Shown: piece after piece, positions 1,054-28,096 of the stretch | How positions within the stretch are numbered: the stretch's first letter is position 1 | Layout of the letters: each line of letters begins with the position of its first letter | Origin: a virus | Strand: one strand, 5' to 3' | Length of the DNA stretch: 34,416 nucleotides | Virus record (IMG/VR): IMGVR_UViG_3300025889_000456 | Location: 1-34,416 of that record | The notes under the pieces: model-generated | Told to the model about the DNA's origin: nothing | Databases searched by the model: none | The model's input: only the letters and a program-made list of their open reading frames with translations | Translations under genes and position numbers: made by a program

Positions 1054-2649
1054 CTATGAAGGAGTGTTAGCGTCTGTATCATCTACAGTATAAAAAACTT
1101 GATAACCAACAAGCTTAACTGTAGAATTAGAAAAGACTTTTAGCTTTATGTTTTGAGCTGTTCTATTCACTCCCCACCTGCGGAAGTTATTTCCTATAAC
1201 AGGATATTCAATGCCAGAATCATACGTTTGACCTTCGTCGTATTGAAGGTCTGTTCCAAAGTCATCAAATGTTTTAGACTTTGGCAATCTTGCGTCTTCA
1301 TCTCTTATCATTTGCATTGTTATAGACTGTCTCCCAGCTCCAACATCTCTATAAAACAATACTATAGAATGTATAGTTTTATCAACTCCGGGATACCCCA
1401 AATCGTTTGGAGCCATTTCTATGCTCCAATCAATGCCTTCTCCATCGTCATCTGTTCCAGTATTTGCATTATAAATATAACCAGAAGCCTGTGATGCATG
1501 AAAGTCTTTTTCTGTCCCATTAGAGTCATATCGAGCAATCCAACTTAACTTATTGGAAGTATAGTCTTCAATAGAGATATCCCCTGTTTCCCAATCCCAA
1601 ACAAGAATTTTGTCATATCCGTTAGCAGAATTGTCTTTTGAAGCCAATAAAGTTCTGACTTGATGATCATCTTCTCTAGTTGTTGAAATTGCATATTGCA
1701 AACGACTTTGATTAAAAAGTCCTTTAAAATCAATGTTTTGCGTCACAATGCCAAATTGACCATCTGCCCTAACAACAAAAGCACCTTCTGTTGCAATGCC
1801 AAAAATAAAGTCTGGTCGAGCAATAAAAGAGGACCGTGCCACAGGATGAAAACCCTTTAAAGCACCTATCTGTTCATCTGGTATATATTCAATGTGTCCT
1901 GTCCGAAACTCCAATCGACCCGGATAAACACCATCAGACTTCATAACCCATAGCTTTTCCCAGCTATCTACCCCACCAACAATAGGCGCAGAACCAATAC
2001 CCCCAATCTCAAACCTGTTAGAATTTAGATATCGGGTTGTATCTACTCCAAACGTTCTTGTATCAATATCAGCCCACAAAATACGTGTAGACTGAAGCGT
2101 TCCACTAATAGTTGGAGCTAATACAACTAATGTATTTCTATGCTGAACAAGGTCTAAGCATTTAGTAAATTGAACAGAGTCAGCTGCAAAAGACAATGCT
2201 GCTGCATTTGAGGGGCTAGCAAAGTCACCATCCCATGTAAATGGAGCATCTATGCCATTTGTTCCAACAATCTTATCATCCAAAAACGCAAATGAATAAT
2301 GATCTAAGTTTGTTCCAGAAGGAGTTAATGCGCCTGTAATGTCATGTCTTGTAGTGCCATTGTCGGTAAAAATATACGATGGCGTGCAAAAAACTTTTTG
2401 AGTTCCAGCCTTAAAGCTTGCCTCTACAAAACCAACTACTGGCTCAGATCCAGTTATTTGCGTTGTGTTAAACTTATCTTTCCCCTTACGAGAAGCAGCA
2501 ATTTGCTGTTCGCTAAAATCTATATTAGTAACACCAATACAATGCTCTGGAGTAAGATTCTCATTTGGATAAATAAGACCATCTCTTAAGCCTCTCATCC
2601 TAAAGATAGGAGACTTTTTTAATCCTGTTAAATTTGTAGGATTTGGCAT
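1054..2649 (-). CDS. Putative tail or DNA-stabilisation protein
   Basis: The product has 531 aa and its ATG overlaps the stop of the preceding connector-like gene (TAATG). It begins MPNPTNLTGLKKSPIFRMRG and is beta-rich throughout with many Trp/Asp-Gly turns, for example DKILVWDWETGD and ESWEKLWVMKSDGVYPG-like strands, resembling a propeller or beta-hub. No signal peptide or membrane segment is seen. By position (after the connector, before the fibre) and length it is like the DNA-stabilisation and tail-hub proteins of short-tailed phages such as P22 gp10. That comparison is an inference from context, not a sequence match I can demonstrate. It is almost certainly a virion protein. Confidence 0.65.
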   Translation of the reverse strand: MPNPTNLTGLKKSPIFRMRGLRDGLIYPNENLTPEHCIGVTNIDFSEQQIAASRKGKDKFNTTQITGSEPVVGFVEASFKAGTQKVFCTPSYIFTDNGTTRHDITGALTPSGTNLDHYSFAFLDDKIVGTNGIDAPFTWDGDFASPSNAAALSFAADSVQFTKCLDLVQHRNTLVVLAPTISGTLQSTRILWADIDTRTFGVDTTRYLNSNRFEIGGIGSAPIVGGVDSWEKLWVMKSDGVYPGRLEFRTGHIEYIPDEQIGALKGFHPVARSSFIARPDFIFGIATEGAFVVRADGQFGIVTQNIDFKGLFNQSRLQYAISTTREDDHQVRTLLASKDNSANGYDKILVWDWETGDISIEDYTSNKLSWIARYDSNGTEKDFHASQASGYIYNANTGTDDDGEGIDWSIEMAPNDLGYPGVDKTIHSIVLFYRDVGAGRQSITMQMIRDEDARLPKSKTFDDFGTDLQYDEGQTYDSGIEYPVIGNNFRRWGVNRTAQNIKLKVFSNSTVKLVGYQVFYTVDDTDANTPS

Positions 2650-3638
2650 TATGACTCTACGGCGTTAGGTATTTTTCTAAAGTTTCCACGCTGTATATAG
2701 GGATTCGTTGCGTTTCTAAATTTACGATTACGAACACCCCGATGCTGCTTAAGCCCTAAAAACTTTTGTTTCCTATCGGTATACTTTTGCAAAGCTCTAG
2801 CTGCTGCGGCTTCTTTTCCTTTGCCAGCAAGCAACATGGACTGAGGGCCATAGATCAATAGATCGTGAAACATTTCTGGTATCTCTGGCCAATCGTCATC
2901 ATTTACTAGTGGAGGCTTATGAGCAAGACTTCTAACAACATATGTCTGTGCAGCAGCAGGTTCAGGCCAAAGCTCCCACCACTGATACGATGGACTATCC
3001 CCCCAATAAGGAGGAATAACAGAAAGCGTATTCCCATCAACGTCTTTTACAGTTACATTGCCCGTAAAAGTTTGGTTGTTTTGATTCTTTAAAACTATAC
3101 GTCTAATACCAATAGCATTACTTTCTGCGTCAAAGCTATTAGTGGTAGACACAGGGGTTGCTCCTGTAAAATCGACAACTTCCCTTGTGTCTACCCCACC
3201 AACCATGCCGTGTATTACTATCTGATAATTTGCACCTGTATCCGTAGCAGATGAAGATTCTACCGTTAAAGCCCCAGCTGTTGCTGGCTGTTTTTGTACG
3301 CCATACTCACCAATCCAGTATGCTTCTTCGGGCGCTCCAGTTTGAGTAGAGCCAGAATGCCTACGATCATAAGAGTGAGGACCATATAAATCTAATGGCC
3401 TATCATTTGAATCGTCTTCTATATTTAAAACATCAGCAACATATAAGGGCATTCCATATTTACTCTGACCACTTGCAACCGTCAAAGTAAACTCCCTACG
3501 CTCTAAATCAGTATTAGACTCAGAAAGAAGCTCCATGTAATGAAGATTAATAGACCTTTTAGCCATGTCTTGAAAATCATCACCATCCTCTTCAGACGCT
3601 AAAAGATTTAACTCTTTATAAATATCCTCATATGTCAT
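2649..3638 (-). CDS. Putative head-tail connector/adaptor protein
   Basis: The product has 329 aa and starts at ATG 3638 behind AAGGATAATATCA. The N-terminus MTYEDIYKELNLLASEEDGD to about residue 50 is helical, as in phage head-tail adaptors. Residues about 110-205 form a beta-rich insertion (VVDFTGATPVSTTNSFDAES and ITVKDVDGN-type strands) that looks like an immunoglobulin-like or decoration domain. The C-terminus is basic (FLGLKQHRGVRNRKFRN), suitable for contact with DNA or portal. It is followed without a gap by the tail/stabilisation protein. The adaptor role is an inference from the helical start, the basic tail and its place in the operon. Confidence 0.6.
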   Translation of the reverse strand: MTYEDIYKELNLLASEEDGDDFQDMAKRSINLHYMELLSESNTDLERREFTLTVASGQSKYGMPLYVADVLNIEDDSNDRPLDLYGPHSYDRRHSGSTQTGAPEEAYWIGEYGVQKQPATAGALTVESSSATDTGANYQIVIHGMVGGVDTREVVDFTGATPVSTTNSFDAESNAIGIRRIVLKNQNNQTFTGNVTVKDVDGNTLSVIPPYWGDSPSYQWWELWPEPAAAQTYVVRSLAHKPPLVNDDDWPEIPEMFHDLLIYGPQSMLLAGKGKEAAAARALQKYTDRKQKFLGLKQHRGVRNRKFRNATNPYIQRGNFRKIPNAVES

Positions 3639-3669: not shown

Positions 3670-4497
3670 TTAAGTCTTAGACTCTTCCAACACTCCATCT
3701 TCAACCATCTTATCAAGATAGTTTGTTTTATCTTGCTCAAGCTCTTCTTTTGACAACGGCTCAATTTCATCCTTTTCAGCAGCATCCATTTCTATCATAG
3801 CTTTAATTTGCTCAGGACTATGTGACCGCAAAAGCTGCTCCATGACAGTAGATGGATCTAAAATGTTACCATTGCTTTGAGCTAATTGCTCTGGAGTATT
3901 TGTAACTTTGCCATCTGATTCTAGTCGATTCATTAGCTTTCCAAAAAACTGTTCCATAGAACTAAACATTTCTGCTTGCTCTTGGTTCTTTTGTCTTTCA
4001 TATGTTTCAGAAAGCTTTAACCTTGCTTCAGGTCCATTTGTAATCTTTGCTTCTGCTAAGCGAAAACCCCATTCTGTGTATCGGTCAAACTGAATACCTG
4101 TTGCTTCTTCTTCTAATTCAGCTTGGTCTTCAGACAACACGCGCATTGTCCTTGCATCAATGCACACAGTCTGCAAAGGTTCTCCCTCAAAAACCATGAT
4201 AATACCATCGTCAGTAGATATTCCAGAAACATCGTCATCCAAAAGGCGATCTTCAAGACCCAAAAGAGCTACCCTTGAATGCGTCACAAGAGTCTCTCTC
4301 CACTCTTTATGGCGAGTATCTGTAATCATTTCTGACTCAGCTTCATACTTTCTATATATAATCTTATCCTTGTCAGACTTAGAAAGAGGAAGCGGAACAC
4401 CAGTATCTAAACTATACTTGCCGCTTTTTATTTCTTTTTGCATCTGTTCAGTAATCGTGCTATCTATAGAAAGTGCTGGCCTTCTTTTACGCAACAT
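3670..4497 (-). CDS. Unknown virion-module protein, acidic helical
   Basis: The product has 275 aa and starts at ATG 4497 behind a strong AAGGAGG inside the recurring CCCCCCTCAAGGAG leader. I do not recognise a family. The N-terminus is basic (MLRKRRPALS). The rest is acidic and helical, with glutamine-rich stretches such as ETYERQKNQEQAEMFSSMEQ at about 160-185, and an acidic end with DKMVEDGVLEESKT. It lies between a beta-rich small protein and the connector-like gene, so an assembly or minor virion role is likely. There are no Cys motifs, no membrane segment and no catalytic signature. Confidence 0.7.
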   Translation of the reverse strand: MLRKRRPALSIDSTITEQMQKEIKSGKYSLDTGVPLPLSKSDKDKIIYRKYEAESEMITDTRHKEWRETLVTHSRVALLGLEDRLLDDDVSGISTDDGIIMVFEGEPLQTVCIDARTMRVLSEDQAELEEEATGIQFDRYTEWGFRLAEAKITNGPEARLKLSETYERQKNQEQAEMFSSMEQFFGKLMNRLESDGKVTNTPEQLAQSNGNILDPSTVMEQLLRSHSPEQIKAMIEMDAAEKDEIEPLSKEELEQDKTNYLDKMVEDGVLEESKT

Positions 4498-4533: not shown

Positions 4534-4848
4534 TTAAGGAGCAGAATGCCCAAAGATAGTTACTTGGCAATCTGCGGTAGATGCAGTCAAAACGCCTTGA
4601 GCCGCATTACCCAAGCCAGTAGGTATTACTAATCCAGAAAAACCAAAAGTAAATCCTTCCACTGAAACATCTATTTTGCTTTCAAACAAAACATCTGTTC
4701 CATCTTTAATTTGAATTAAAGAATCTGCGTCAGTATGTCCAGCAATTCCTGTAACAATCCACTGACGATTTGCATCTGCGCCTTGCGATGCGGTTGCTCC
4801 GCTATTTGTTCCTGCTGCTGTTGCGCTCCAATAGGAATCACCAACCAT
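4534..4848 (-). CDS. Small beta-rich virion-like protein, paralogue of the 11856-12176 product
   Basis: The product has 104 aa and starts at ATG 4848 after ACGGAGATGATTTA. It shares a clear core with the product of 11856-12176: IAGHTDADSLIQIKDGTDVL here against IAGHTDKNSLVQIIDGTNVV there. Both precede an ID(V) strand, an IP turn and a terminal CxVxIxG strand. The pattern of short strands with no helices suggests a beta-sandwich decoration or head-fibre protein. It sits downstream of the glycosyltransferases, about 7 kb from its paralogue. The exact role is unknown. Confidence 0.75.
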   Translation of the reverse strand: MVGDSYWSATAAGTNSGATASQGADANRQWIVTGIAGHTDADSLIQIKDGTDVLFESKIDVSVEGFTFGFSGLVIPTGLGNAAQGVLTASTADCQVTIFGHSAP

Positions 4849-4943: not shown

Positions 4944-5855
4944 TCAATTATCTTGCTTTTTTACTCCAAAATCATCTAAAATCTTTTGGATTCTAAGGTC
5001 GTATGTGTGAAACTTTCTGGCATATTCCATGCCATTGTTAGCAATCTTCTCTCGCTCTGTTGGATTAGACAATGCCCATAGCCCTTTTTCTAGCAAGCTC
5101 TCTTTGCTATCATAGCCTAAGAAATGTTCGCCTTCTACAAATCCAAGCTCAACAATTCCTTCTACAGTGGTGTTTGTCAACAGGCTAGTTCCTGTAGATA
5201 GGATTTCAAAAAAGCGCATGTTTAGATCATTACGAATAGAAATGTTGTATCCTAACCTTGATCTAATATAAACAACTGCCATGTCTTCAAAAAAGCGATT
5301 AAACGCAAACCAATGGTTATTAAACCTAGAAAAAGCATAGTCTAACCATTCAGTTCTATTGTTTGACCCTTCCCCAGCACCTTGATTAATAAAGCCAACA
5401 AAGCCTATATCATATTGTTTTGAAAGACTTTGGCCTTTGGTATGCTGCTCTTTGTTGGGATGAGCCATCATTTCTTTTAGGTTTGGATGAGCCATAGGAT
5501 TGCAAGCAAGCGGTAGCCAACTTACATTTTTTATCCCATCTGCTCTCATTTTGCGAACACCTTCAAGCTGAGCGCAATAAACCTTATCAAACTGCTTTGC
5601 TTTCCAAAGACGATAGTCATATCCCAAGTGCGTATCTACGGCCCAATATGCGCTTGGGCCGGGACATTCCCACTTAATATCATCCCGACCATCGTCTACA
5701 TAAATATACAATTCCCTTTCGGGGATTTTTCCATCGGGTCTCCACCGATCTACCTTATCGCCCCATCCCAATTGATGTTTGCATGAATTGAAAGCAAGTG
5801 TAGCAGTTCCGTTGTTTCTTATATCCGAATTATAAACGAAAGAAATTTGAGACAT
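4944..5855 (-). CDS. GT-B type glycosyltransferase, CgeB-like
   Basis: The product has 303 aa and its ATG at 5855 overlaps the stop of the upstream gene (TAATG). The C-terminal third (about 211-295) has the look of the Glyco_trans_1_2 family found in CgeB-like proteins: NMRFFEILSTGTSLLTN, then EGEHFLGYDSKESLLEKG, then a helix with REKIANNGMEYARKFHTYD. The N-terminal half has the features of the first Rossmann domain (YDIGFVGFINQG; KVYCAQLEGVRKMRADG). The predicted reaction is transfer of a sugar from a nucleotide sugar in the cytoplasm. The acceptor is unknown. It ends a three-gene sugar-transfer block inside the virion operon, so a virion protein is the likely acceptor. Family call is from memory of motifs. 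Confidence 0.8.
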   Translation of the reverse strand: MSQISFVYNSDIRNNGTATLAFNSCKHQLGWGDKVDRWRPDGKIPERELYIYVDDGRDDIKWECPGPSAYWAVDTHLGYDYRLWKAKQFDKVYCAQLEGVRKMRADGIKNVSWLPLACNPMAHPNLKEMMAHPNKEQHTKGQSLSKQYDIGFVGFINQGAGEGSNNRTEWLDYAFSRFNNHWFAFNRFFEDMAVVYIRSRLGYNISIRNDLNMRFFEILSTGTSLLTNTTVEGIVELGFVEGEHFLGYDSKESLLEKGLWALSNPTEREKIANNGMEYARKFHTYDLRIQKILDDFGVKKQDN

Positions 5856-7141
5856 TAGACAACCTCCATTGCTTTTGCTTTAATTGCCATTGTCCCATGT
5901 ATGTTTTCGATTATTTCTTCCACTTCAAATCCGCATTTTTCTAAAAGAGACTGTGCAGACTTTGCATTATACGCATGAACGTGCGTATAATCTAGCAAAA
6001 TAGTTGGCAAATAATCATGGTTTGGCATTGTCAAAAGCAATGACCCAGAAGTCTTTAAAACCCTTTTCCATTCTTCTAATGCAGCAAATGGATCAACAAG
6101 ATGTTCTAATAAATGTGGAGCCATGATGTAATCAACACTTCCTGATTGCACAGGAAGATCATTTGCATCAGCAGTCGTGTCTAAGTTGGCTTCTGAAAGT
6201 TTTCGTCCTCCAGCACCTTGCTCTCCTTTTCTTGCAAGATCAAAGCCAAATGCCTCATAGTTTGCGCCTTTTGACCCACATCCCAAATTAAGTCCTTTTG
6301 TTCCTTTTAGTGGAAGCAAATGTTTTTCATACCAATTTTCTTCATACATTGGAACGCCATCAAACATCTTGTCCCAATATTCCTCTGTGTGCTGCTCTGC
6401 ATAACAGTACGTCCACTTACATGAAAAACAATTATTCCACGCTATAAAGCCATGCTTTTTAATAATGGCATTGCTTACAGCTTCTTGATGGTCTTGAGAA
6501 TCCCAATAACCCTTATGGACTCGCTGGCCCGTTTGCTGTCCTATGTGATGAAGGTAAGCTGTTCTGTCTGCAAAAAGCTTATACCCTTCTTTCATTAAGC
6601 GAATAGATAGGTCTAAGTCATCTCCACCCGGAAGACTTTCATCAAGACCCCCTATGCTTTTTAATAGGTCAGTTCTTGTTACCAAGCAAAATCCAATTAG
6701 CAGTGTTGTGTCTAAGCAAATTGGCAAATTGATATTAAAAAGATTTTGATTGCCAGCAACAAAGTTAGAGCATGGACCTACAGCTCCCACCTTTTCATCA
6801 TTAAAATGACGTATAAGCGTCCTCCAAAATACCTTAGACTCTGGAGGGAATACTACGTCATCGTTCATCATACAGAAAAAAGGTGTATCTGTATTTTCTA
6901 ATGCAAGATTTATAGACCCCATCCATTTAAGATTTGATCCGGGCTGCAATACTTCAACGCTTTTAAACCCTGTAGAAGAGCACAAGGATAAAATCTGTTC
7001 TTGGCTTTCTTTGCTACTTTCGTTATTGATTATAATTATTTTATATGGAAACTCTGTATTGGCTATTAGTGAATACAAAGACCATTGGAGCTGTTGATAA
7101 TTTTGAAATGTAGGGATTGCAATAGTTAGAAGAGGTGTCAT
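5855..7141 (-). CDS. Fusion of a GT2 glycosyltransferase and a SAM methyltransferase
   Basis: The product has 428 aa. Residues 1 to about 215 are a GT-A/GT2 domain: LLTIAIPTFQNYQQLQWSLY at the start, MNDDVVF (D94-D95, the metal/nucleotide-sugar site) and GGLDESLPGGDDLDLSIRLM at about 164-183, then a His pair at 198-199. A linker rich in Trp and Cys follows (about 230-275). Residues about 280-428 are a class I methyltransferase: GLNLGCGS at 283-290 (SAM loop), DLPVQSGSVDYIM at 328-340 and LLTMPNHDYLP at 369-379, as in Methyltransf_11 proteins. No frameshift separates the halves. It starts at ATG 7141, 1 nt after the preceding stop. A combined sugar-transfer and methyl-capping function is an inference. 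Confidence 0.88.
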   Translation of the reverse strand: MTPLLTIAIPTFQNYQQLQWSLYSLIANTEFPYKIIIINNESSKESQEQILSLCSSTGFKSVEVLQPGSNLKWMGSINLALENTDTPFFCMMNDDVVFPPESKVFWRTLIRHFNDEKVGAVGPCSNFVAGNQNLFNINLPICLDTTLLIGFCLVTRTDLLKSIGGLDESLPGGDDLDLSIRLMKEGYKLFADRTAYLHHIGQQTGQRVHKGYWDSQDHQEAVSNAIIKKHGFIAWNNCFSCKWTYCYAEQHTEEYWDKMFDGVPMYEENWYEKHLLPLKGTKGLNLGCGSKGANYEAFGFDLARKGEQGAGGRKLSEANLDTTADANDLPVQSGSVDYIMAPHLLEHLVDPFAALEEWKRVLKTSGSLLLTMPNHDYLPTILLDYTHVHAYNAKSAQSLLEKCGFEVEEIIENIHGTMAIKAKAMEVV

Positions 7142-7142
7142 A

Positions 7143-7976
7143 TCATTCCCCTTCTGCCTTATTGTAATGCCCTAAAAACCGATCATACGCACTTGGGTTT
7201 AACTCCCTATATCTTTTATGATATGTCTCATCGACCCAATGTGGCTCATATTTTTTATGCCTAGTCTTTGTTGCCGTATCAACATAACGCTGCACGTTAT
7301 ACTGATGGCATTTTGTGCAAAAGAAAAAATCTTCACCAGCTCCCGTAGACTCAAACCAAGGCTGCGGAACTTGCTTTAAGACCTCTCCTTGCATCATAAA
7401 AACGCCTGTGCCAAATGCTATTGCACCGCCAACGTCTTTATTAGTTATCAACTTATCCTGTGGATAATCCACCACTACTTCGCTTCGCATAAAACGCTGA
7501 CCAGTAGAATTTACATCATCCTTTATTGTCATAATAACAGGCTGATGCGGCTCTCTAGCAGCAAAAGCAAGAGCTGCTACAACGGGGACGTTGTGCCTAA
7601 ATAGCTTTAAAAAAGAGCTATTATCAAACAACATATCGTCATCCCACATCATTATGTAATCAGCATCCCACTGCAATGCCGTTTCACATATTAGCTCTCT
7701 TGCTTTTCCGGGCAATGACGTTCTAGAATAGTCAATTAGCCCTAACTCCAATTTGCCTAACCGCTGAAAATCCTCATCAGTAGGTTCGGCTAATCCACTT
7801 TCATCTGCTGGATCAATAGAAGGCCACTCTATTTTCCAATATGCTTCTTTGCCGATTGTCTGATAGACAATAGAACGAACTCTAAGCTCCGACAAATACA
7901 TAAAAAAATCTATGTGTTTTGCGTAGCACGCAACATCCGATCCATTATACCAAGGCATACCTATGGCTAGTTTCAT
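7143..7976 (-). CDS. GT-A fold glycosyltransferase-like protein
   Basis: The product has 277 aa. The chosen start is ATG 7976, whose ATGA overlaps the stop of the upstream gene and has GGGGTGG before it; a GTG three codons upstream is possible. MKLAIGMPWYNG begins a GT-A Rossmann strand, DADYIMMWDDDM at 105-115 gives the DxD metal site, and STGAGEDFFFCTKC at 210-223 with TRH at 238-240 fits the acceptor-side acid and metal-binding His of GT2-like enzymes. The reaction is sugar transfer from a nucleotide sugar. It is the first of three adjacent sugar-transfer genes downstream of the capsid genes. Confidence 0.78.
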   Translation of the reverse strand: MKLAIGMPWYNGSDVACYAKHIDFFMYLSELRVRSIVYQTIGKEAYWKIEWPSIDPADESGLAEPTDEDFQRLGKLELGLIDYSRTSLPGKARELICETALQWDADYIMMWDDDMLFDNSSFLKLFRHNVPVVAALAFAAREPHQPVIMTIKDDVNSTGQRFMRSEVVVDYPQDKLITNKDVGGAIAFGTGVFMMQGEVLKQVPQPWFESTGAGEDFFFCTKCHQYNVQRYVDTATKTRHKKYEPHWVDETYHKRYRELNPSAYDRFLGHYNKAEGE

Positions 7977-8170
7977 TTGATCCACCCCATTTTAAGTTTA
8001 AAAAACTCCCAAGTGCTGCCATTAATACAAAGAGAAAAACGATGACCATCATGCTTTCTTCGTATCTCTTGGGGTGAGTTGGACCAAAATAAACTACCAC
8101 AGCTACAGCGGTAGAGCCGACGATCTTTCGGATCGTTCGGCTCTACCAGCTTTCGCAAAAATGCTAACAT
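7973..8170 (-). CDS. Small zinc-knuckle-like protein
   Basis: The product has 65 aa and starts at ATG 8170 after AAGGAGTCTGCT, part of the recurrent leader. YRCSCGS at 21-26 and KHDGH at 39-43 give a C-x-C...H-x2-H set suited to one zinc ion. The protein is basic. It overlaps the next gene by 4 nt, so it is co-translated with the glycosyltransferase. Function unknown. Confidence 0.7.
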   Translation of the reverse strand: MLAFLRKLVEPNDPKDRRLYRCSCGSLFWSNSPQEIRRKHDGHRFSLCINGSTWEFFKLKMGWIK

Positions 8171-8176
8171 AGCAGA

Positions 8177-8190
8177 CTCCTTGAGGGGGG
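8177..8190 (-). promoter_or_regulatory. Recurrent late-gene leader with Shine-Dalgarno, copy 2
   Basis: The minus-strand sequence CCCCCCTCAAGGAG lies 6 nt before the ATG at 8170. On the minus strand it is preceded by a run of A, and it matches the copies before the genes starting at 4497 and 10915. Confidence 0.6.
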
Positions 8191-8202
8191 TTTTTTGTTT
8201 TC

Positions 8203-8670
8203 TTACAGAGCCCGAAGAAATACGTGGTCAGCGTAGTTAATCGTACCCAAAGAATGCAACGTTGCCGTTACCGTATCCAGTGCTACGACAGGGCCAAGAA
8301 GACCCTGCACAGCACCCGTCGATCCAAGGCCCACTGAACCAGTAGCGCCCGGACCTAGCGGATGTCCCGGAACAACAGTAACAGAACCAACAATACGATA
8401 AAGCAAAGCCGACTCATGGTAGCCATAAATCTGCACTTCGCCCACATCGTTGTTAGCTATGTCTTCGTTGGCAAGACCGACAAACGATCCCGGACCAGTA
8501 ACATAAGCATTGGCCGCTTGGCCTACTTCGTTACTGCCAACAGAAGTGCTATTTTTCGCAGTGGTAAACAAAAAGACGGGATAATGCGTCGTAATCGTTT
8601 GACCATCCACGTTAGTTACGTTCACCCAAACCTTTTCAGCGTCTGAGCGATTAACGGTCTGCATGATCAT
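8203..8670 (-). CDS. Putative capsid decoration protein
   Basis: The product has 155 aa and starts at ATG 8670 behind AGGAGCATTTAAC; an in-frame ATG two codons on is possible. It is beta-rich, with a glycine-rich turn region PGHPLGPGATGSVGLGSTGA at about 106-125. It is the second gene after the major capsid protein. No family is recognised with certainty. Position, composition and size suggest a decoration or head-fibre protein. Confidence 0.7.
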   Translation of the reverse strand: MIMQTVNRSDAEKVWVNVTNVDGQTITTHYPVFLFTTAKNSTSVGSNEVGQAANAYVTGPGSFVGLANEDIANNDVGEVQIYGYHESALLYRIVGSVTVVPGHPLGPGATGSVGLGSTGAVQGLLGPVVALDTVTATLHSLGTINYADHVFLRAL

Positions 8671-8696: not shown

Positions 8697-8987
8697 TTAG
8701 AATGGACCCGTCAAGAGAGCTGAGTATTCTACGGTATCGGTAGCGGCTGGGCCGTCTACCCAAATAGAACCATTTGCTGTTCCTTCGGTCCCATCATTGC
8801 TATTCTTCACTCCAAGGCAAGCACTGCCAACGGTGTCTTGATTTGTCAAAGACAACGTGACAATACGCGAATTGGTATCAGCGATAGCAAAAGCTCTGGC
8901 CGTAGTATCAACCTCAATCGTGCCAGAAATCAAAACAAGATCTCCAACACAATTAACACTGCGGCTATTGATATCTCCAGCTGCCAT
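8697..8987 (-). CDS. Small beta-rich protein next to the major capsid gene
   Basis: The product has 96 aa and starts at ATG 8987 with AGAGGAGATAGGCA before it. Sequence such as RIVTLSLTNQDTVGSACLGV alternates strands with short turns and there are no long helices. It lies 15 bp downstream of the coat gene, the usual place for capsid cement or decoration proteins. The role is inferred from position. Confidence 0.7.
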   Translation of the reverse strand: MAAGDINSRSVNCVGDLVLISGTIEVDTTARAFAIADTNSRIVTLSLTNQDTVGSACLGVKNSNDGTEGTANGSIWVDGPAATDTVEYSALLTGPF

Positions 8988-9002: not shown

Positions 9003-9998
9003 TTAAGTGATACCAGCCAAAACGCCAAGCTTACGACGATTGTTGACGGCAATATTACCTTGGAAGAGGATGTTAGCAACAAGCGCATCTTGATCAATGG
9101 GCTTCTGAAAACCTTCATCCGTCATCGCAAAGTTAGCCTTGCCATGAACAAACATCATAATATGAGCGGAGTTTAGCATAAACATTGCACCCGAAGTGCA
9201 ATAATCATCCCAAACAACTTCTGCGCCCTTGAACTTGAGAGTTTCAATGCCAGCATCAGCACCACCCGAAGGATTCTGCTCATAGCGCACACGAGGAGCG
9301 ATCAAGGCTTCCAACGCTTCATGGATGGTCTGCGTAGTAACAATAAAATCGGGCGAAGATGAAACACCTTCGCTACCACGCGAACAGCTATTGTAAACAA
9401 CGCGCATGTTGCTAACCAAGTTAGCAGCCGCATTCCCTACACTAGCCGCAGCGCGGTTGCGCCATGCGGTATTTTCAGCTGGGTCAATGCTACCATAAAC
9501 CGTTGTGGTCGGAGTCGTATCAACCGCTGCGACAAGACCGGTCAACTGCTTATTGGCACTCGCCGTTCCGTCCGAAAAAATACCCGTGGCAATACCATCA
9601 CCCAAAGAAAGTTCGCCTTGGCGTACTTTTTCGGTCATAATATCGTTGATCTGCGCCGGTCCCATATTGGAACGCAAGCTCAAACCATCAATAGCCAAGC
9701 CAACCGCAGCTTGCTTCCACGTAAACCAAGCCGTGGTTTGGCCAATCTGAGGCGTGATGTTAAGATTGTCATAACCAGTATACCACTTAAACGTGCCATT
9801 GGTACCGGTCATAACGGGAATGCGAATACGCTCTCCACCCTGCAAAACCTTAATACGATTTCCAGTGCGGAACCACGCAAGCGTTTTCGCCATATTGTAA
9901 ACGTTATCTTGAATCATTCCAGACGATAGGATTTCATCAAGAGTCATCGTCAACAATGGGCCGTATACCCTCGTCAGAGAGGATTCACCTACTGCCAT
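9003..9998 (-). CDS. Major capsid protein, HK97-fold type
   Basis: The product has 331 aa and starts at ATG 9998 behind AGGAGTAATCCATC. It lies directly after the scaffold gene and before small beta-rich proteins, the classical head order. Sequence features fit a coat protein: an N-terminal arm with TMTLDEILSSGMIQDNVY, a glycine/threonine-rich middle with GTNGTFKWYTGYDN, PDFIVTTQTIHEALEALIAP at about 216-235 (spine helix region), and a C-terminal beta segment FQGNIAVNNRRKLGVLAGIT. Length is normal for coat proteins that use a separate scaffold. No protease or delta domain is fused. The coat role is well supported by synteny; fold assignment is by resemblance. Confidence 0.88.
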   Translation of the reverse strand: MAVGESSLTRVYGPLLTMTLDEILSSGMIQDNVYNMAKTLAWFRTGNRIKVLQGGERIRIPVMTGTNGTFKWYTGYDNLNITPQIGQTTAWFTWKQAAVGLAIDGLSLRSNMGPAQINDIMTEKVRQGELSLGDGIATGIFSDGTASANKQLTGLVAAVDTTPTTTVYGSIDPAENTAWRNRAAASVGNAAANLVSNMRVVYNSCSRGSEGVSSSPDFIVTTQTIHEALEALIAPRVRYEQNPSGGADAGIETLKFKGAEVVWDDYCTSGAMFMLNSAHIMMFVHGKANFAMTDEGFQKPIDQDALVANILFQGNIAVNNRRKLGVLAGIT

Positions 9999-10021: not shown

Positions 10022-10915
10022 TTACGTTCTAACAAGACGATTCCACGCTCGTTTCACAGCTTTAGCCGTGACATCTTCAAGCGTATCCCCGTCTTCTCTA
10101 ATGGATGGTTCGCCTTTAGGAACAGAAGCAGAAGAACGATGCATTGAATTTGCTCTCATCAGTCGCTGCACACGATCTCCTCCCGTTGCCCCTTGTGCTC
10201 CCCGCTGTTCCGCTTCAGATATGAGCTTGTCAAAATTATGAAGAATATATAAATGATTAGGAGTTATACCTTGCTCTGGACTTCTTAGCTGACGATAAAG
10301 ATCGCGGACACCATCAAAAATATCAGTGTTCCACACAAATTTATCTCCATCCATATAGCCAAAGTCTTCACCCCACTGCTCAATGCCCTCAGCTATAGAC
10401 TGAGCAGTCATTTTAGTAGACTCTTCAATCATCTTTTCGCGCTCAATTTCATCGCGGCTTATTAACCCCATCTCATCTATCAAAGCTTCTAAGCGGTCAC
10501 GCTCATGCTTTGGCATACGAGATAGTAGCTGCTTACGTCTGACCTCCTCTGGCGAAGGCTGTTCAGGTTTTTCATTCGCCTTCTCCAAAGCTTCAAGCCG
10601 TTCTTGTAATTCTTTGTTACTATTGGCTTGATTGTTTATTGTTCTTTGAATCTCTTTAAAAGATTCGGCTCCTCCGGGCAATCGGTCAGCATTTTGCTCT
10701 AGAAAAGCCAGCACATCTCCTCGCGTTGGTAGTTTCTCCGAACTCTTTGACTCATTCGGGAGTCCATTTCTGGGACCGTTTGAATCTCGTTCGTCACCAA
10801 CGCGACCAGTCGCGCCAGACTGTTTTTGTTCCATTAAATTATTAATAGACTCAGCGTTTAATTCTGCTTCCATTTGTTGCAATTCTTCAGCTGGACTTAT
10901 CGTTGCTGTGCTCAT
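10022..10915 (-). CDS. Capsid scaffold protein
   Basis: The product has 297 aa. It is hydrophilic and almost wholly helical, with a coiled coil at about 80-115 (NNQANSNKELQERLEALEKA) and charged helices around 125-160. The C-terminus is basic (TAKAVKRAWNRLVRT), as in scaffolds that bind the coat protein through a C-terminal helix. It lies directly upstream of the major capsid gene, 23 bp away, so coupled expression is expected. It starts at ATG 10915 behind the recurrent CCCCCTCAAGGAG leader. No protease motif is seen, so procapsid maturation probably releases it intact. Confidence 0.82.
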   Translation of the reverse strand: MSTATISPAEELQQMEAELNAESINNLMEQKQSGATGRVGDERDSNGPRNGLPNESKSSEKLPTRGDVLAFLEQNADRLPGGAESFKEIQRTINNQANSNKELQERLEALEKANEKPEQPSPEEVRRKQLLSRMPKHERDRLEALIDEMGLISRDEIEREKMIEESTKMTAQSIAEGIEQWGEDFGYMDGDKFVWNTDIFDGVRDLYRQLRSPEQGITPNHLYILHNFDKLISEAEQRGAQGATGGDRVQRLMRANSMHRSSASVPKGEPSIREDGDTLEDVTAKAVKRAWNRLVRT

Positions 10916-10922
10916 ACGTAGT

Positions 10923-10935
10923 CTCCTTGAGGGGG
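10923..10935 (-). promoter_or_regulatory. Recurrent late-gene leader with Shine-Dalgarno, copy 3
   Basis: The minus-strand sequence CCCCCTCAAGGAG lies 7 nt before the scaffold ATG at 10915. It is one C shorter than the other two copies. It sits between the zinc-ribbon gene and the scaffold gene. Confidence 0.6.
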
Positions 10936-10936
10936 A

Positions 10937-11377
10937 TTAAGCATTTGGCAAATCATCTGCTTTACCAACGTCATTACTGTCATCTGTTCCTACTACAAAA
11001 TTATTTTTATCTTCTGCTCGTTTTTCTTCTTCTCTACGATAATCATCTAACGTTCGACCACTAAGTTTTTGTATTGGCTTAACAGAGTTAGGTGCTTTTT
11101 CGTCCCAATTTCTAGCACCTTTAACTTTATCTCCTGCCTCAACAACGCCTAACGCTTTCATTATCTGTTTCTTATGGCGAAGTCCATGTATATCCATATC
11201 CAAAGACTCGTCATAATATGACTCAAAAGGCATATAACCTTTGATCGCTGACATAGGAAACTGATATTCTAGCTGTCCTCCGCACGCACATTCTCTCGTA
11301 TGATTACGAACTTCAAAAGAAGACCATAGCTCTTGTTTTTTTTCGCATTTATTACAGCTATAATCGTAGAGAGGCAA
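10937..11377 (-). CDS. FmdB-type zinc-ribbon protein
   Basis: The product has 146 aa. It starts at TTG 11377, supported by GAGGAGGG upstream and by the MPxYxY opening typical of this family. MPLYDYSCNKCEKK with C8 and C11, then C30 and C32 (ECACGGQ), makes a zinc ribbon. The tail from about 90 is charged and helical (DDYRREEEKRAEDKNN). FmdB-type ribbons are widespread and occur in phage head regions, but their role there is unknown. It lies between the Pro/Ala-rich protein and the scaffold. Confidence 0.82.
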   Translation of the reverse strand: MPLYDYSCNKCEKKQELWSSFEVRNHTRECACGGQLEYQFPMSAIKGYMPFESYYDESLDMDIHGLRHKKQIMKALGVVEAGDKVKGARNWDEKAPNSVKPIQKLSGRTLDDYRREEEKRAEDKNNFVVGTDDSNDVGKADDLPNA

Positions 11378-11379
11378 AA

Positions 11380-11856
11380 CTATCTAACCCTCCTCTTTGG
11401 AGACATTAAAGGAATGGATCGTTGTAGATCATCTTGCATTTGCATTTTTGAACGATCCATCGAATTTGTCTTACGTAGCTCTGCGCCTTTTTCTTGGGCA
11501 TAAAGACGTTCTTGAGCTTTTTGCTCAAGATTATCTGTGCGTGACTGTCCAGCAATTTGGTCAAGCTTTTCCAGTGCTTTAGGCAAAACTTCCAATTCCT
11601 CTAAAGTAAAGCCAACTAAGACGCTTTCACCTACTCCAATCTGTTCTGCTACTTTAGCTCTAGCCGCATCCATCCTAGCGCGTTCATCCTGCTGTCTATT
11701 CTGTGGAGCAGCAGGAGCGGTACGTGAAGGAGCCGCATTTCTGTTAGAAGGCATAGGGCGTGCTTGAGCACCTGCTGGCTTTGGTGTTCCAGCGGGAGGA
11801 GCTGTAGCTGCTTGCTGTGGAGCCATAGGCCTACGATGCATTCTACTATGTGGCAT
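11380..11856 (-). CDS. Pro/Ala-rich low-complexity protein with helical C-terminus
   Basis: The product has 158 aa. The chosen start is ATG 11856, which overlaps the previous stop (TAATG); a longer in-frame extension would lie wholly inside the upstream gene. Residues 1 to about 60 are disordered and rich in Pro, Ala and Arg (PQQAATAPPAGTPKPAGAQA). Residues about 60-158 are helical and charged, with FTLEELEVLPKALEKLDQIA at the centre, and the end is basic. It lies just upstream of the zinc ribbon and scaffold genes, so an assembly role is possible. No family recognised. Confidence 0.72.
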   Translation of the reverse strand: MPHSRMHRRPMAPQQAATAPPAGTPKPAGAQARPMPSNRNAAPSRTAPAAPQNRQQDERARMDAARAKVAEQIGVGESVLVGFTLEELEVLPKALEKLDQIAGQSRTDNLEQKAQERLYAQEKGAELRKTNSMDRSKMQMQDDLQRSIPLMSPKRRVR

Positions 11857-12176
11857 TATCCATCTCCTGTAAAGGCTGTAAATCCCGTAAGAGAAATAAA
11901 GCAATCATTTGTACTGTTAACAACTTTGGCTTTCATGTCTGTGTTACGAGTTCCGGGAATGCAGATCGCCTCATTGAAATACGATCCCTGCGATACGTCT
12001 ATATATATTTCCCAGACCACATTTGTTCCATCAATAATTTGCACTAAGCTATTTTTATCTGTGTGACCAGCTATAGCTAATGCCCAATACTGACGATGCT
12101 GTTCAGCTGTTTTTGTAGCTGTTGCACCTCCAGCACCTCCTTCTTGATGCTCCTCCCACCGACTTGAAAGATTCAT
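11856..12176 (-). CDS. Small beta-rich virion-like protein, paralogue of the 4534-4848 product
   Basis: The product has 106 aa. Its ATG at 12176 overlaps the upstream stop, and its own stop overlaps the downstream ATG. The core IAGHTDKNSLVQIIDGTNVV aligns with the product of 4534-4848, including the following ID strand, IP turn and terminal DCxIxL strand. The N-terminal 25 residues are Gly/Ala/Glu-rich. Probable decoration, head-fibre or neck component; the exact place is unknown. Confidence 0.75.
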   Translation of the reverse strand: MNLSSRWEEHQEGGAGGATATKTAEQHRQYWALAIAGHTDKNSLVQIIDGTNVVWEIYIDVSQGSYFNEAICIPGTRNTDMKAKVVNSTNDCFISLTGFTAFTGDG

Positions 12177-12613
12177 TAGCTTAACTTTGGGATGTAATAC
12201 CCCATGATCGTCATGTGAATATCGTCATCATCCGTCTTAGCATTTACAAATTTACCCTTGCTAACAAGGATGTTCAACGGCGTAATAGAAATCGTTGAGT
12301 TTTGAGCCAAGCCAAAATGAAGCAGCTTTTTATCTACTGTCGTTGTAGTATTGCTTGCCGCTTCATAAACAATAATATTTGTATCCGATGCGTTGCTTAT
12401 TTCTTTGTCTGCAAAAGCCACTATGCCTGTAATAACAAATTGCTTTCCGTTTTTAGGCGCATAGTAGCTATACGCTGTGTTTACAAGATTCAGTTCAAAA
12501 AAGACTGTCTCATCATAAGCATACGGCGCAGTAACAAGCTGGCCTATTTTAGTAACAATTGCCGTAACAAAGCCACCCGAATGGTCACCTGTTATGTGCA
12601 TAGGAGCTGGCAT
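12176..12613 (-). CDS. Beta-rich virion-like protein of the same group
   Basis: The product has 145 aa and its ATG at 12613 overlaps the preceding stop. GKQFVITGIVAFADKEISNA at about 55-74 takes the place of the IAGHTD core of its neighbours and is followed by NIIVYEA and a terminal DDIHMTIMGYYIP strand. All four adjacent genes follow the same strand order, which suggests divergence from one ancestor. Function is inferred only from position in the virion operon. Confidence 0.72.
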   Translation of the reverse strand: MPAPMHITGDHSGGFVTAIVTKIGQLVTAPYAYDETVFFELNLVNTAYSYYAPKNGKQFVITGIVAFADKEISNASDTNIIVYEAASNTTTTVDKKLLHFGLAQNSTISITPLNILVSKGKFVNAKTDDDDIHMTIMGYYIPKLS

Positions 12614-13191
12614 TACACCTCAAGCATCATAAATGTAATACGCGCATACGCCGTTCCAGCCGTATGGTCGCTAACAACGCGAATCTCAAACGTCTGGTTT
12701 TGTGGTATTAACAACGAGCCTTCTTTATTAAACGCATACTGACTGTTGTCTACATAAATACGATCCAGCTCAGTAAACGTCCCAGCCATAGTAGGGTTAT
12801 TATCATACGCTGTGACCGCTGCTGAATTTGCCGCACCCGATGTTGTATTAACCGGCGTAACCGCCGTGCCGCCACTTGCATACGTCCTACCGTATCCCAA
12901 TTCAAAGCGCGTTGCTGCGGCTGGCAAAGCCGTTCCACCACTAGTCCCAACAAGCTGCACGCGAACATAGCTAATCGCCATAACGCGATCTGCATCCGTA
13001 TTTTTTACATGCAATATCGTATGCGTACTATTGTTGACCGAAGCAAAATCGCCAACAACTTGATATGACTGGTTTTTATTTAGGGCAACCCAATGCTGTA
13101 GGGCAAGGCTTTCGGACTTTACAAGAGCCTGTCCTTCTTGATTTACCTCCAAAACATATTTATTGCCTCTACCGCCAATTTGAATAGACAT
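12613..13191 (-). CDS. Beta-rich virion-like protein of the same group
   Basis: The product has 192 aa. The start is ATG 13191 with GGAGAGTAAGCGTT before it; an in-frame extension upstream would overlap the previous gene and lacks a ribosome site. It opens MSIQIGGRGNKYVLEVNQEG, much like the next gene upstream, then NKNQSYQVVGDF and HTILHVKNTDADRVMAISYV. It ends in FEIRVVSDHTAGTAYARITF. An all-beta fold is likely. Function unknown, probably virion-associated. Confidence 0.72.
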   Translation of the reverse strand: MSIQIGGRGNKYVLEVNQEGQALVKSESLALQHWVALNKNQSYQVVGDFASVNNSTHTILHVKNTDADRVMAISYVRVQLVGTSGGTALPAAATRFELGYGRTYASGGTAVTPVNTTSGAANSAAVTAYDNNPTMAGTFTELDRIYVDNSQYAFNKEGSLLIPQNQTFEIRVVSDHTAGTAYARITFMMLEV

Positions 13192-13196
13192 AACGC

Positions 13197-13790
13197 TTAC
13201 TCTCCTGTATTCCGCAAATAACAAATAAACGCACAATACACTTGTAGGCTTGTATTGCTGGATGTATTTGGATTTAGCTTTACGCCTATTGTCTTGTTCT
13301 TTGGTATAATCTCATTGATAGGCAAAACATGTCGAGAACCAAGGGACGTAAGTGCTAAAATATGCGTTTCTCCATCGGTCAACGTCTTGCCTGTTGCCCC
13401 TTTATAAGCATCAGCAGTCAAAGAACTTTGTGTTGCGCCGTAGTTTCTGTTTGAATTTACATCCACAGCAACGGGTGTATCAATGATTGTGCCAGCTGTA
13501 GGATTCTTAATGACCGTTGTATAGGCTTTATTACTGCTTGTCCCATTGGTATCAAAATATCCCACAACAATAGTTTCTATAATTAAGTTCCGTGTCTCAT
13601 TATTTTTCACATATATAAGGGGCGTTTCGGCATCATCTGTTAACGTAAAAAGACCTGTGTTAATATTAAATGCCAATTCATCTTGATTTTGCCGAACAGC
13701 CTCTTCAACAGAGACAGCACGCACCCACAGGCGTTCACTTTCATCTACGTTCGCCGCAAAGTTATTTCGTCCACCATTTACTTGTGGCAT
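13197..13790 (-). CDS. Beta-rich virion-like protein of the same group
   Basis: The product has 197 aa and its ATG at 13790 overlaps the upstream stop (TAATG). It contains ETPLIYVKNNETRNLIIETI followed by VVGYFDTNGT and a Pro-containing turn, then GVKLNPNTSSNTSLQVYCAF near the end. This is the same order of strands as the next gene, with about the same length. It begins the run of four related genes downstream of the portal. Probable head or neck accessory protein. Confidence 0.72.
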   Translation of the reverse strand: MPQVNGGRNNFAANVDESERLWVRAVSVEEAVRQNQDELAFNINTGLFTLTDDAETPLIYVKNNETRNLIIETIVVGYFDTNGTSSNKAYTTVIKNPTAGTIIDTPVAVDVNSNRNYGATQSSLTADAYKGATGKTLTDGETHILALTSLGSRHVLPINEIIPKNKTIGVKLNPNTSSNTSLQVYCAFICYLRNTGE

Positions 13791-24875: not shown

Positions 24876-25004
24876 ATGGCATACTTCACACCGATAGGGT
24901 GGAACTGTTACTACTGTAGCTATTGGAACAGTCCACGCAGACGCAAATGCTGGCTCTGCAAAAACAAAAAGAAAGTAGCTGTCAATGAATATCTTCTACC
25001 TTGA
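24876..25004 (+). CDS. RanBP2-type zinc-finger miniprotein
   Basis: The product has 42 aa. ATG 24876 is chosen because AAGGAGG lies 7 nt upstream; an in-frame start 19 codons earlier has no site. W9, C11, C14, N18, C25 and C28 match the RanBP2-type finger, W-x-C-x2-C-x3-N-x6-C-x2-C, exactly. The basic tail KNKKKVA follows. Fingers of this type bind RNA or ubiquitin-like proteins in eukaryotes; in a phage, RNA or protein binding is an inference. It overlaps the next gene by 20 nt. Confidence 0.75.
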   Translation: MAYFTPIGWNCYYCSYWNSPRRRKCWLCKNKKKVAVNEYLLP

Positions 25005-25473
25005 CCCTTCTCCTATCACAGCTGCACAGTATCAGTGTGATAAGCACATAGTTAAGATGCCACTTGAAGCAGCGCAGTTACTATCCACAGCGCACCGAAC
25101 CATAGATAACATACAAGATGGTCCACTATATAAGATAGCACACCTCAACCATCCTTGTTCTATATGGACTCGTGCTTCTGATAGTAACTATCAGTGGCTC
25201 TTTGACCACTTCATTGCTCTCTCTGAAGAGTACGAAAGGAGATACAATAAAGAACACAGTAGCTTTACTACGTTAGTAGAGCATCTGTATAGATCGCCAG
25301 TCAACATCTCTACAGATAGCTTTACTGAGCCGCCTCAGTGTATGCCCGATGAGCACAAGCAAAGCGATACAGTCGCTGCCTATCGTGCATACTATCACAG
25401 TAAGTCAAGCTTTGCTGCATGGAATCACTCACCGGTTCCCCATTGGTGGAGCCACACTAAGGAGATTGCGTAA
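24985..25473 (+). CDS. Conserved phage protein with CDKH motif
   Basis: The product has 162 aa and starts at ATG 24985. MNIFYLDPSPITAAQYQCDK with HIVKMPLEAAQLLSTAHR after it is an opening I recognise from many phage proteins of unknown function; C18, D19, K20 and H21 and the later HPCSIWTR and FAAWNHSPVPHWW regions look like an active or metal site. I cannot name a reaction. Its stop overlaps the next ATG (TAATG). Confidence 0.75.
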   Translation: MNIFYLDPSPITAAQYQCDKHIVKMPLEAAQLLSTAHRTIDNIQDGPLYKIAHLNHPCSIWTRASDSNYQWLFDHFIALSEEYERRYNKEHSSFTTLVEHLYRSPVNISTDSFTEPPQCMPDEHKQSDTVAAYRAYYHSKSSFAAWNHSPVPHWWSHTKEIA

Positions 25474-27212: not shown

Positions 27213-27827
27213 TTACTCGCTTGTCTTCCTTTTGATACTTATAGTTATTTCACCCCAAGGATATTCCACACTAAACTCTGTATCTGGTGTGCTTTCCGCG
27301 ATGGGACATCTTTTCACCTTTGAGGTGAACTCTTCTATTGCTTCTACAAGTTCAGCAGGAACTAACCTGCTGCCTTGATCTGGCTCAGCCAATACAGGAA
27401 CAGGGCGAAGCTCTTCTGCTCTGAGTCTACGCAACGCAAGAGCGGATAGGTTATGTTCACTGGCTTGACGTAGGAACCAATGCCTTTCCTCTTTGTTTCG
27501 TATACCTGCCACTTCTAAGTAGTGCGTGTGTGTTAAGTCATCATACACTCTTTCTTCAGGTGGAAAGACAGAGGCAACCCAAGCACAGTTCCTTAAGGTT
27601 GGCTCTGTCTTTCCCGTAATATAAACTGCTTGAGAATATTTGTCTGGATAGTTCTGCTCACCATACAGAATCCAGTCACCTATCCACCAGTTTATATTGT
27701 GATGTATGGCAAGAAGCACCGAGCCTTTCGATTGCCAATCTTCATACATCAACCCTTCAGGTAGACTGTAATGAGCACCGTCATACAGGCCAGTCTCCGT
27801 AGGGACTAAAGACTGTTCTTCGTCCAA
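27213..27827 (-). CDS. ParB-like or nucleoid-type helical phage protein
   Basis: The product has 204 aa. It starts at TTG 27827, 22 nt inside the preceding repressor gene, because the conserved-looking region GLYDGAHYSLPEGLMYEDWQ begins right after it. INWWIGDWILYGEQNYPDKY and TLRNCAWVASVFPPEER are motifs I recall from a helical domain in phage and actinobacterial DNA-associated proteins, sometimes compared with ParB-like proteins. The C-terminal part is acidic with a strand-rich end. It is the second gene of a leftward pair with a repressor, so it may modulate the same control circuit. Function uncertain. Confidence 0.55.
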   Translation of the reverse strand: MDEEQSLVPTETGLYDGAHYSLPEGLMYEDWQSKGSVLLAIHHNINWWIGDWILYGEQNYPDKYSQAVYITGKTEPTLRNCAWVASVFPPEERVYDDLTHTHYLEVAGIRNKEERHWFLRQASEHNLSALALRRLRAEELRPVPVLAEPDQGSRLVPAELVEAIEEFTSKVKRCPIAESTPDTEFSVEYPWGEITISIKRKTSE

Positions 27828-28060
27828 TCTACCCTATCCTTTATCTTGACAATCTTACCGTTAGGATCATAGGAGAGTATGTCCCAAGGTTCAACCGACA
27901 AAGCTTTGCACAGCTTGGATAATGTACGCAGAGATACACTATGTCCCTTGCCCTTACATAAAACATTGATAGTGTTCTTGGCTACACCAGACCGGAGAGA
28001 AAGCTCAGCCTGTGTATAGCCCCTACTTTCTATGACGCTTCGCAGTTTCCATTTGAACAT
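27806..28060 (-). CDS. XRE-family repressor-like transcription factor
   Basis: The product has 84 aa. ATG 28060 is preferred since MFKWKLRSVIESRGYT is the usual start of such factors; an in-frame start further up would lie in the promoter. The helix-turn-helix is at about 16-41 (QAELSLRSGVAKNTINVLCK), then the SLRTLSKLCKALSVEPWDIL helices typical of Cro/CI-like proteins. It binds operator DNA as a dimer, by family knowledge. It is transcribed against its neighbours from its own promoter and faces a rightward promoter, the arrangement of a small switch. No cleavage or peptidase domain is present. Confidence 0.88.
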   Translation of the reverse strand: MFKWKLRSVIESRGYTQAELSLRSGVAKNTINVLCKGKGHSVSLRTLSKLCKALSVEPWDILSYDPNGKIVKIKDRVDWTKNSL

Positions 28061-28067
28061 ACCTAAA

Positions 28068-28096
28068 AATATAAACCCAAAAATTAACAATGTCAA
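28068..28096 (-). promoter_or_regulatory. Consensus promoter for the repressor gene, leaderless
   Basis: On the minus strand TTGACA (28096-28091), a 17-nt spacer (28090-28074) and TATATT (28073-28068) form a near-perfect sigma70 promoter. The predicted start is at 28061-28060, right at the ATG, so the mRNA would have no leader, as in lambda cI from PRM. Confidence 0.75.

Follow-up and report, generated by a model that had tools for sequence, protein, structure and literature searches.

Virion glycosylation is already known, and experimental evidence for it in tailed phages has so far come mostly from mycobacteriophages. In Che8-type mycobacteriophages, phage-encoded glycosyltransferases (GTs) were reported on experimental grounds to glycosylate capsid and tail proteins (Freeman 2023, in PMC11256854, PMC12619734). 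The accounts consulted mention no fusion of a GT to a methyltransferase (MT) in Che8-type phages, and they place the GTs of the Che8-related F1 phage Maravista near the 3' end of the genome, outside the head operon (PMC11256854). A polypeptide of the fused type is known from the algal giant virus PBCV-1, whose three-domain protein A064R joins two GT domains to a methyltransferase; on the capsid glycan, this methyltransferase acts on the sugar that the protein itself has attached (PMC9614988), the targets being the N-glycans of Vp54. In the archaeal virus STIV, the single-gene GT-A enzyme A197 is a candidate for glycosylating the coat protein (PMC4187194, PMC10551542).

A close genomic parallel is found in the cultured Mycobacterium phage Minerva, where the capsid gene, a homologue of the GT-A family described here, a kinase-annotated gene, a methyltransferase gene and further annotated GTs stand in a row (gp13-gp19; L114:4908-8868). 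Minerva belongs to mycobacteriophage cluster J (Omegavirus). Some genes of this row are annotated as head-to-tail connectors.

We analyzed a 34.4-kb IMG/VR record, hereafter the window, which covers only part of the larger genome of an uncultured phage; records related to it extend to 50-55 kb. Like the Che8-type phages it carries phage-encoded GTs, whose action on a virion protein is predicted here rather than experimental, and like PBCV-1 it carries a GT-MT fusion, although a capsid glycan is the proven target only of A064R. It differs from Minerva in its head module and host, and in that the methyltransferase of Minerva is a separate gene and its row includes an annotated kinase. The late operon lies on the minus strand and runs from terminase, portal, several small proteins and a gene in scaffold position to capsid and small structural genes; beyond the GT cassette come the 275-aa gene, the SU10-type adaptor and a 531-aa gene, and then a fibre-like gene with repeats (Table 1). 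The fibre-like protein (1-1044) is open-ended and built of repeated units GGNxISDTDSTDDLGTTSVRWANLYVDSIGDTGQ.

Table 1. Genes of the conserved head block and its glycosyltransferase slot, with window coordinates
Feature	Position	Strand	Evidence and remarks
Major capsid protein (MCP)	9003..9998	-	phrog_9953 major head protein, E 9e-61; first gene of conserved block
96-aa small protein behind capsid gene	8697..8987	-	tblastn; found in some relatives only
dec155, 155-aa putative decoration-fold protein	8203..8670	-	AF2 model, Foldseek, distance covariation
65-aa protein, CxC...HxxH	7973..8170	-	Invariant Cys/His; position conserved
GT-A glycosyltransferase	7143..7976	-	AF2, Foldseek, invariant motifs; ATG at 7976, stop at 7143
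GT2-SAM methyltransferase (MT) fusion	5855..7141	-	PF00535 + PF08241/PF13489
CgeB-like GT-B glycosyltransferase	4944..5855	-	PF13524, E 1.5e-16; order conserved
104-aa small protein closing slot	4534..4848	-	Paralogue of 11856-12176
275-aa conserved protein after slot, no assigned function	3670..4497	-	tblastn synteny
SU10-type head-tail adaptor, end of conserved block	2649..3638	-	PF24175, E 9e-14

The original prediction, made from the sequence alone, had placed three sugar-transfer enzymes at this site, between capsid and tail genes. Profile matches, and for the GT-A the predicted fold, confirm all three enzyme classes at the positions given, on the minus strand, with capsid and putative decoration genes upstream and the head-tail adaptor downstream. 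Of the couplings it had described among the three enzymes, the 1-nt gap between GT-A and fusion (7142) and the 1-nt TAATG overlap between fusion and GT-B (5855) are present as claimed, but the 4-nt overlap (ATGA) joins the GT-A to an additional upstream gene of 65 codons. The 65-aa gene, the GT-A, the fusion and the GT-B are translationally coupled. A promoter scan for operon structure gave no excess (7 sites versus 17.3 in shuffled sequences); terminator-like sites were more frequent (15 versus 5.9), but several are intragenic, which makes them no guide to operon structure.

The 65-aa protein carries C22, C24, H40 and H43, which are invariant in 7 relatives, and it may be a zinc-binding, possibly zinc-finger protein. 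Because these residues are invariant and the gene keeps its place in relatives, we count it as part of the block. The 104-aa protein that closes the slot and a 106-aa protein (11856-12176) are paralogues (39% identity, E 7e-20), and the pair flanks the head gene block on either side. The latter is one of four small proteins between portal and scaffold (11856-13790); for the other three, matches came solely from the near-identical contig L017, and the region looks like a variable accessory module.

The GT-A enzyme has no Pfam match, and a sequence search of solved structures was uninformative, but its AlphaFold (AF2) model (pLDDT 92.5) and Foldseek confirm a GT-A fold. The metal-binding DxD motif (D112/D114), a GED motif (214-216) and H240 are invariant across 24 relatives. 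The best PDB folds are the collagen hydroxylysine galactosyltransferase COLGALT1, LH3, STIV A197 and mimivirus R699. A197 is the closest compact fold (TMt 0.72), at 12% identity. By this model the closest folds are protein-glycosylating enzymes, two of them viral; the matches are moderate in TM-score and tell fold and class, not substrate. The enzyme probably initiates glycosylation on a protein. Homologues at no less than 40% identity occur in 37 IMG/VR contigs, some of them near-identical to one another. Beyond the present head type, homologues follow the capsid gene in Minerva, Mel-JY34 and a Manatee Spring phage, all with other heads, and a cyanophage homologue is not beside the capsid gene.

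In the fusion protein, the N-terminal half matches PF00535 (E 8e-14, residues 6-123), with the GT2 motifs NDD (93-95) and GDD-D (173-177) invariant in 24 relatives. The C-terminal half matches PF08241 (E 9e-10, residues 299-369) and PF13489 (E 1e-9); together with the glycine-rich SAM motif LNLGCG, this Methyltransf_11/23 match identifies a class I SAM-dependent methyltransferase. Wherever the MT half is present in relatives, it is fused in frame with GT2, and it is missing from several close relatives. On the GT2 tree its presence changes at least 3 times by well-supported branches and 5 times by a fewest-changes count; for example, L014, which lacks the MT, nests with L004 within an MT-bearing clade. 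These repeated gains or losses mark methylation as an accessory, switchable step. Among cultured phages only distant matches to the MT domain were found, and scanning genome contigs for related prophages gave nothing for the capsid protein and, for the fusion, nothing beyond a distant archaeal GT (22% identity).

The CgeB-like GT-B matches Glyco_trans_1_2 (PF13524) at residues 188-294, its N-terminal half being weakly covered. No homologue was found in cultured phages, and the solved-structure sequence search yielded spurious matches to designed armadillo repeats and was otherwise uninformative.

Relatives were fetched with the fusion, capsid, dec155 and GT-A sequences, and the window proteins were mapped onto them by tblastn. 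A single arrangement emerged, in which capsid and decoration genes are followed by a gene of the 65-aa type, GT-A, GT2 (its MT half present or missing), GT-B, a small protein, the 275-aa gene and the adaptor. MCP relatives span 34-93% identity, and the cassette order holds down to about 45% capsid identity. Since the same order recurs in many divergent contigs, a chance arrangement is excluded. In two contigs at 33-34% capsid identity that end early (L040, L108), the capsid gene still precedes a decoration homologue, a small ORF and a gene resembling GT-A. The GT genes are in conserved linkage with structural genes, as expected of a phage virion glycosylation system. All three enzymes are under purifying selection, with pN/pS of 0.16-0.31, like their structural neighbours. 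In five cultured phages that share the head module more distantly (BUCT555, Mx9, ppBjS10J-1, 45A6 and Mwe-JY13), no GT is annotated at this site, many genes there being labelled merely 'hypothetical'.

Other enzymes can occupy the same slot. Contig L033 has a related capsid and a decoration homologue, yet a different set of enzymes replaces the three GTs (10630-13568): a sulfotransferase (PF13469), a 382-aa GT-A-like protein with a sub-threshold Anp1 Pfam match, a zinc-ribbon-like protein, and a methyltransferase with matches to rhamnosyl O-methyltransferase/CmcI (PF04989, PF13578). In L078 the cassette carries insertions at 7076-7972 and 10170-11336, namely an extra GT2-like gene and a protein that joins a cytidylyltransferase-like domain to a methyltransferase. 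Judged by their domain matches, the enzymes in both slots are carbohydrate chemistries. A further GT position within a related head module is seen in L091, where a small GT-A-like gene (7617-8216), flanked by portal and scaffold, precedes the gene of a capsid protein that is only distantly related (26%).

For dec155, a putative decoration protein encoded beside the capsid gene, no match was found among cultured phages, and the solved-structure sequence search was uninformative. Its AF2 model is of modest confidence (pLDDT 67), and with it all of the top 31 Foldseek PDB matches, at TM about 0.5, are phage or viral capsid entries. Most of these entries are decoration, cement or head-fibre proteins, and lambda gpD, SHP, the phi29 head fibre and capsid components of T1 and Pam3 are among them. 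We further compared pairwise protein distances, regressed on those of MCP, adaptor and the 275-aa gene, with a permutation test. The dec155 distances covary with those of GT2 (partial r 0.68) and with those of GT-B (partial r 0.55), at a permutation p of about 0.001 or below, and both results survive the dropping of outliers; GT2 and GT-B covary with each other to a similar degree (0.63). Covariation of dec155 with the GT-A is weak and vanishes without one sequence, and with three other products (portal, 531-aa protein and the 104-aa protein beside the GTs) there was none. The signal could reflect functional coupling of acceptor and enzymes, or exchange of the dec155-to-GT-B block as one recombination unit; either reading links dec155 to the cassette. 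A near-invariant serine, S87, is lost in L033 and L075, which is too thin a basis to point to an acceptor residue.

Taken together, the late-operon cassette quite probably carries out stepwise glycosylation, with optional methyl-capping, of the putative capsid decoration protein. We propose that the GT-A, acting in the cytoplasm during assembly, would use a host nucleotide-sugar to attach the first sugar to a protein exposed on the capsid, most likely dec155, encoded two genes upstream. No sugar-nucleotide epimerase or dehydratase was found in the window or its relatives, so the donors are probably host-derived. GT2 and the CgeB-like GT-B would then lengthen this sugar into a short glycan, and the MT half may methylate the sugar freshly added by its own GT2 domain. 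The presumed outcome is a short, partly methylated glycan coating the capsid surface, with surface shielding, particle stability or attachment as candidate roles. Synteny, structural neighbours, covariation and the cultured-phage parallels make dec155 the most likely acceptor. The same evidence, with no DNA-modification companions found in the window and 11 relatives, best supports the original prediction that a virion protein rather than DNA is glycosylated, and points to the putative decoration protein as its target, the chemistry being inferred. Methyl-capping, which it had also proposed, is plausible given the proven analogue A064R, but as an accessory step rather than a core one, the MT being absent from several close relatives.

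The cassette might instead glycosylate another virion protein, such as the capsid protein, the 104-aa protein or a tail component. We regard this variant of virion glycosylation as possible but somewhat doubtful. Mycobacteriophage glycans are reported to sit on the C-terminal ends of capsid and tail tube subunits (PMC12619734), but here MCP covaries only slightly with GT2 (partial r 0.05-0.23). The 104-aa gene directly follows the GTs, yet tblastn did not detect it in three contigs that keep them (L012, L039, L073), and its distances lack any excess covariation with GT2 or GT-B, as do those of the portal but not those of dec155.

That the enzymes remodel a host surface glycan, for superinfection exclusion or release of progeny from receptors, appears unlikely. 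Phage glycosyltransferases can alter host serotype in lysogeny (PMC12619734), and a surface polysaccharide would also be a fitting substrate for the sulfotransferases and O-methyltransferases of the slot; however, every relative has the cassette among its late structural genes, not near lysogeny genes, and the closest folds of the GT-A act on protein. Decoration of modified bases in phage DNA is highly improbable. Tet dioxygenase-associated GT-A enzymes (TAGT) do hypermodify phage DNA, and among structural neighbours a TAGT-domain protein appears as a distant hit at rank 43, but a sulfotransferase and a rhamnosyl O-methyltransferase-like enzyme occupy the same slot. DNA modification is also unlikely because thymidylate synthase, C5 DNA methylase, TAGT and Tet/JBP dioxygenase genes had no match in the window and 11 relatives, records that may be fragments; the Tet/JBP part of this negative is weak, since that search matched no control genome either.

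Returning to glycosylation of the decoration protein, we tentatively suggest, short of calling it probable, that the fixed site between decoration protein and adaptor is an exchangeable glycan-coat locus. Enzyme swaps there would switch surface chemistry between methylated, sulfated and phage-activated sugars, the decoration protein co-diverging with its GTs, and the lineage would exchange its coat chemistry as a cassette. The findings point to the surface chemistry of the capsid as a trait that changes quickly in phages. Many uncultured phages carry such a conserved multi-enzyme cassette in their head operon, beside its predicted acceptor, and the locus predicts, testably, which protein carries the glycan. 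Its GT-methyltransferase fusion parallels A064R, the chlorovirus enzyme of the capsid glycan; a related slot holds a sulfotransferase.

Two further features of the window lie outside the late operon. Within the plus-strand early region, a minus-strand pair (27213-28096) encodes a Cro/C1-type HTH protein alongside one that weakly matches DUF1016, possibly a regulator or toxin-antitoxin-like pair. A pyrimidine dimer DNA glycosylase-like gene (PF03013) is located at 24985-25473.
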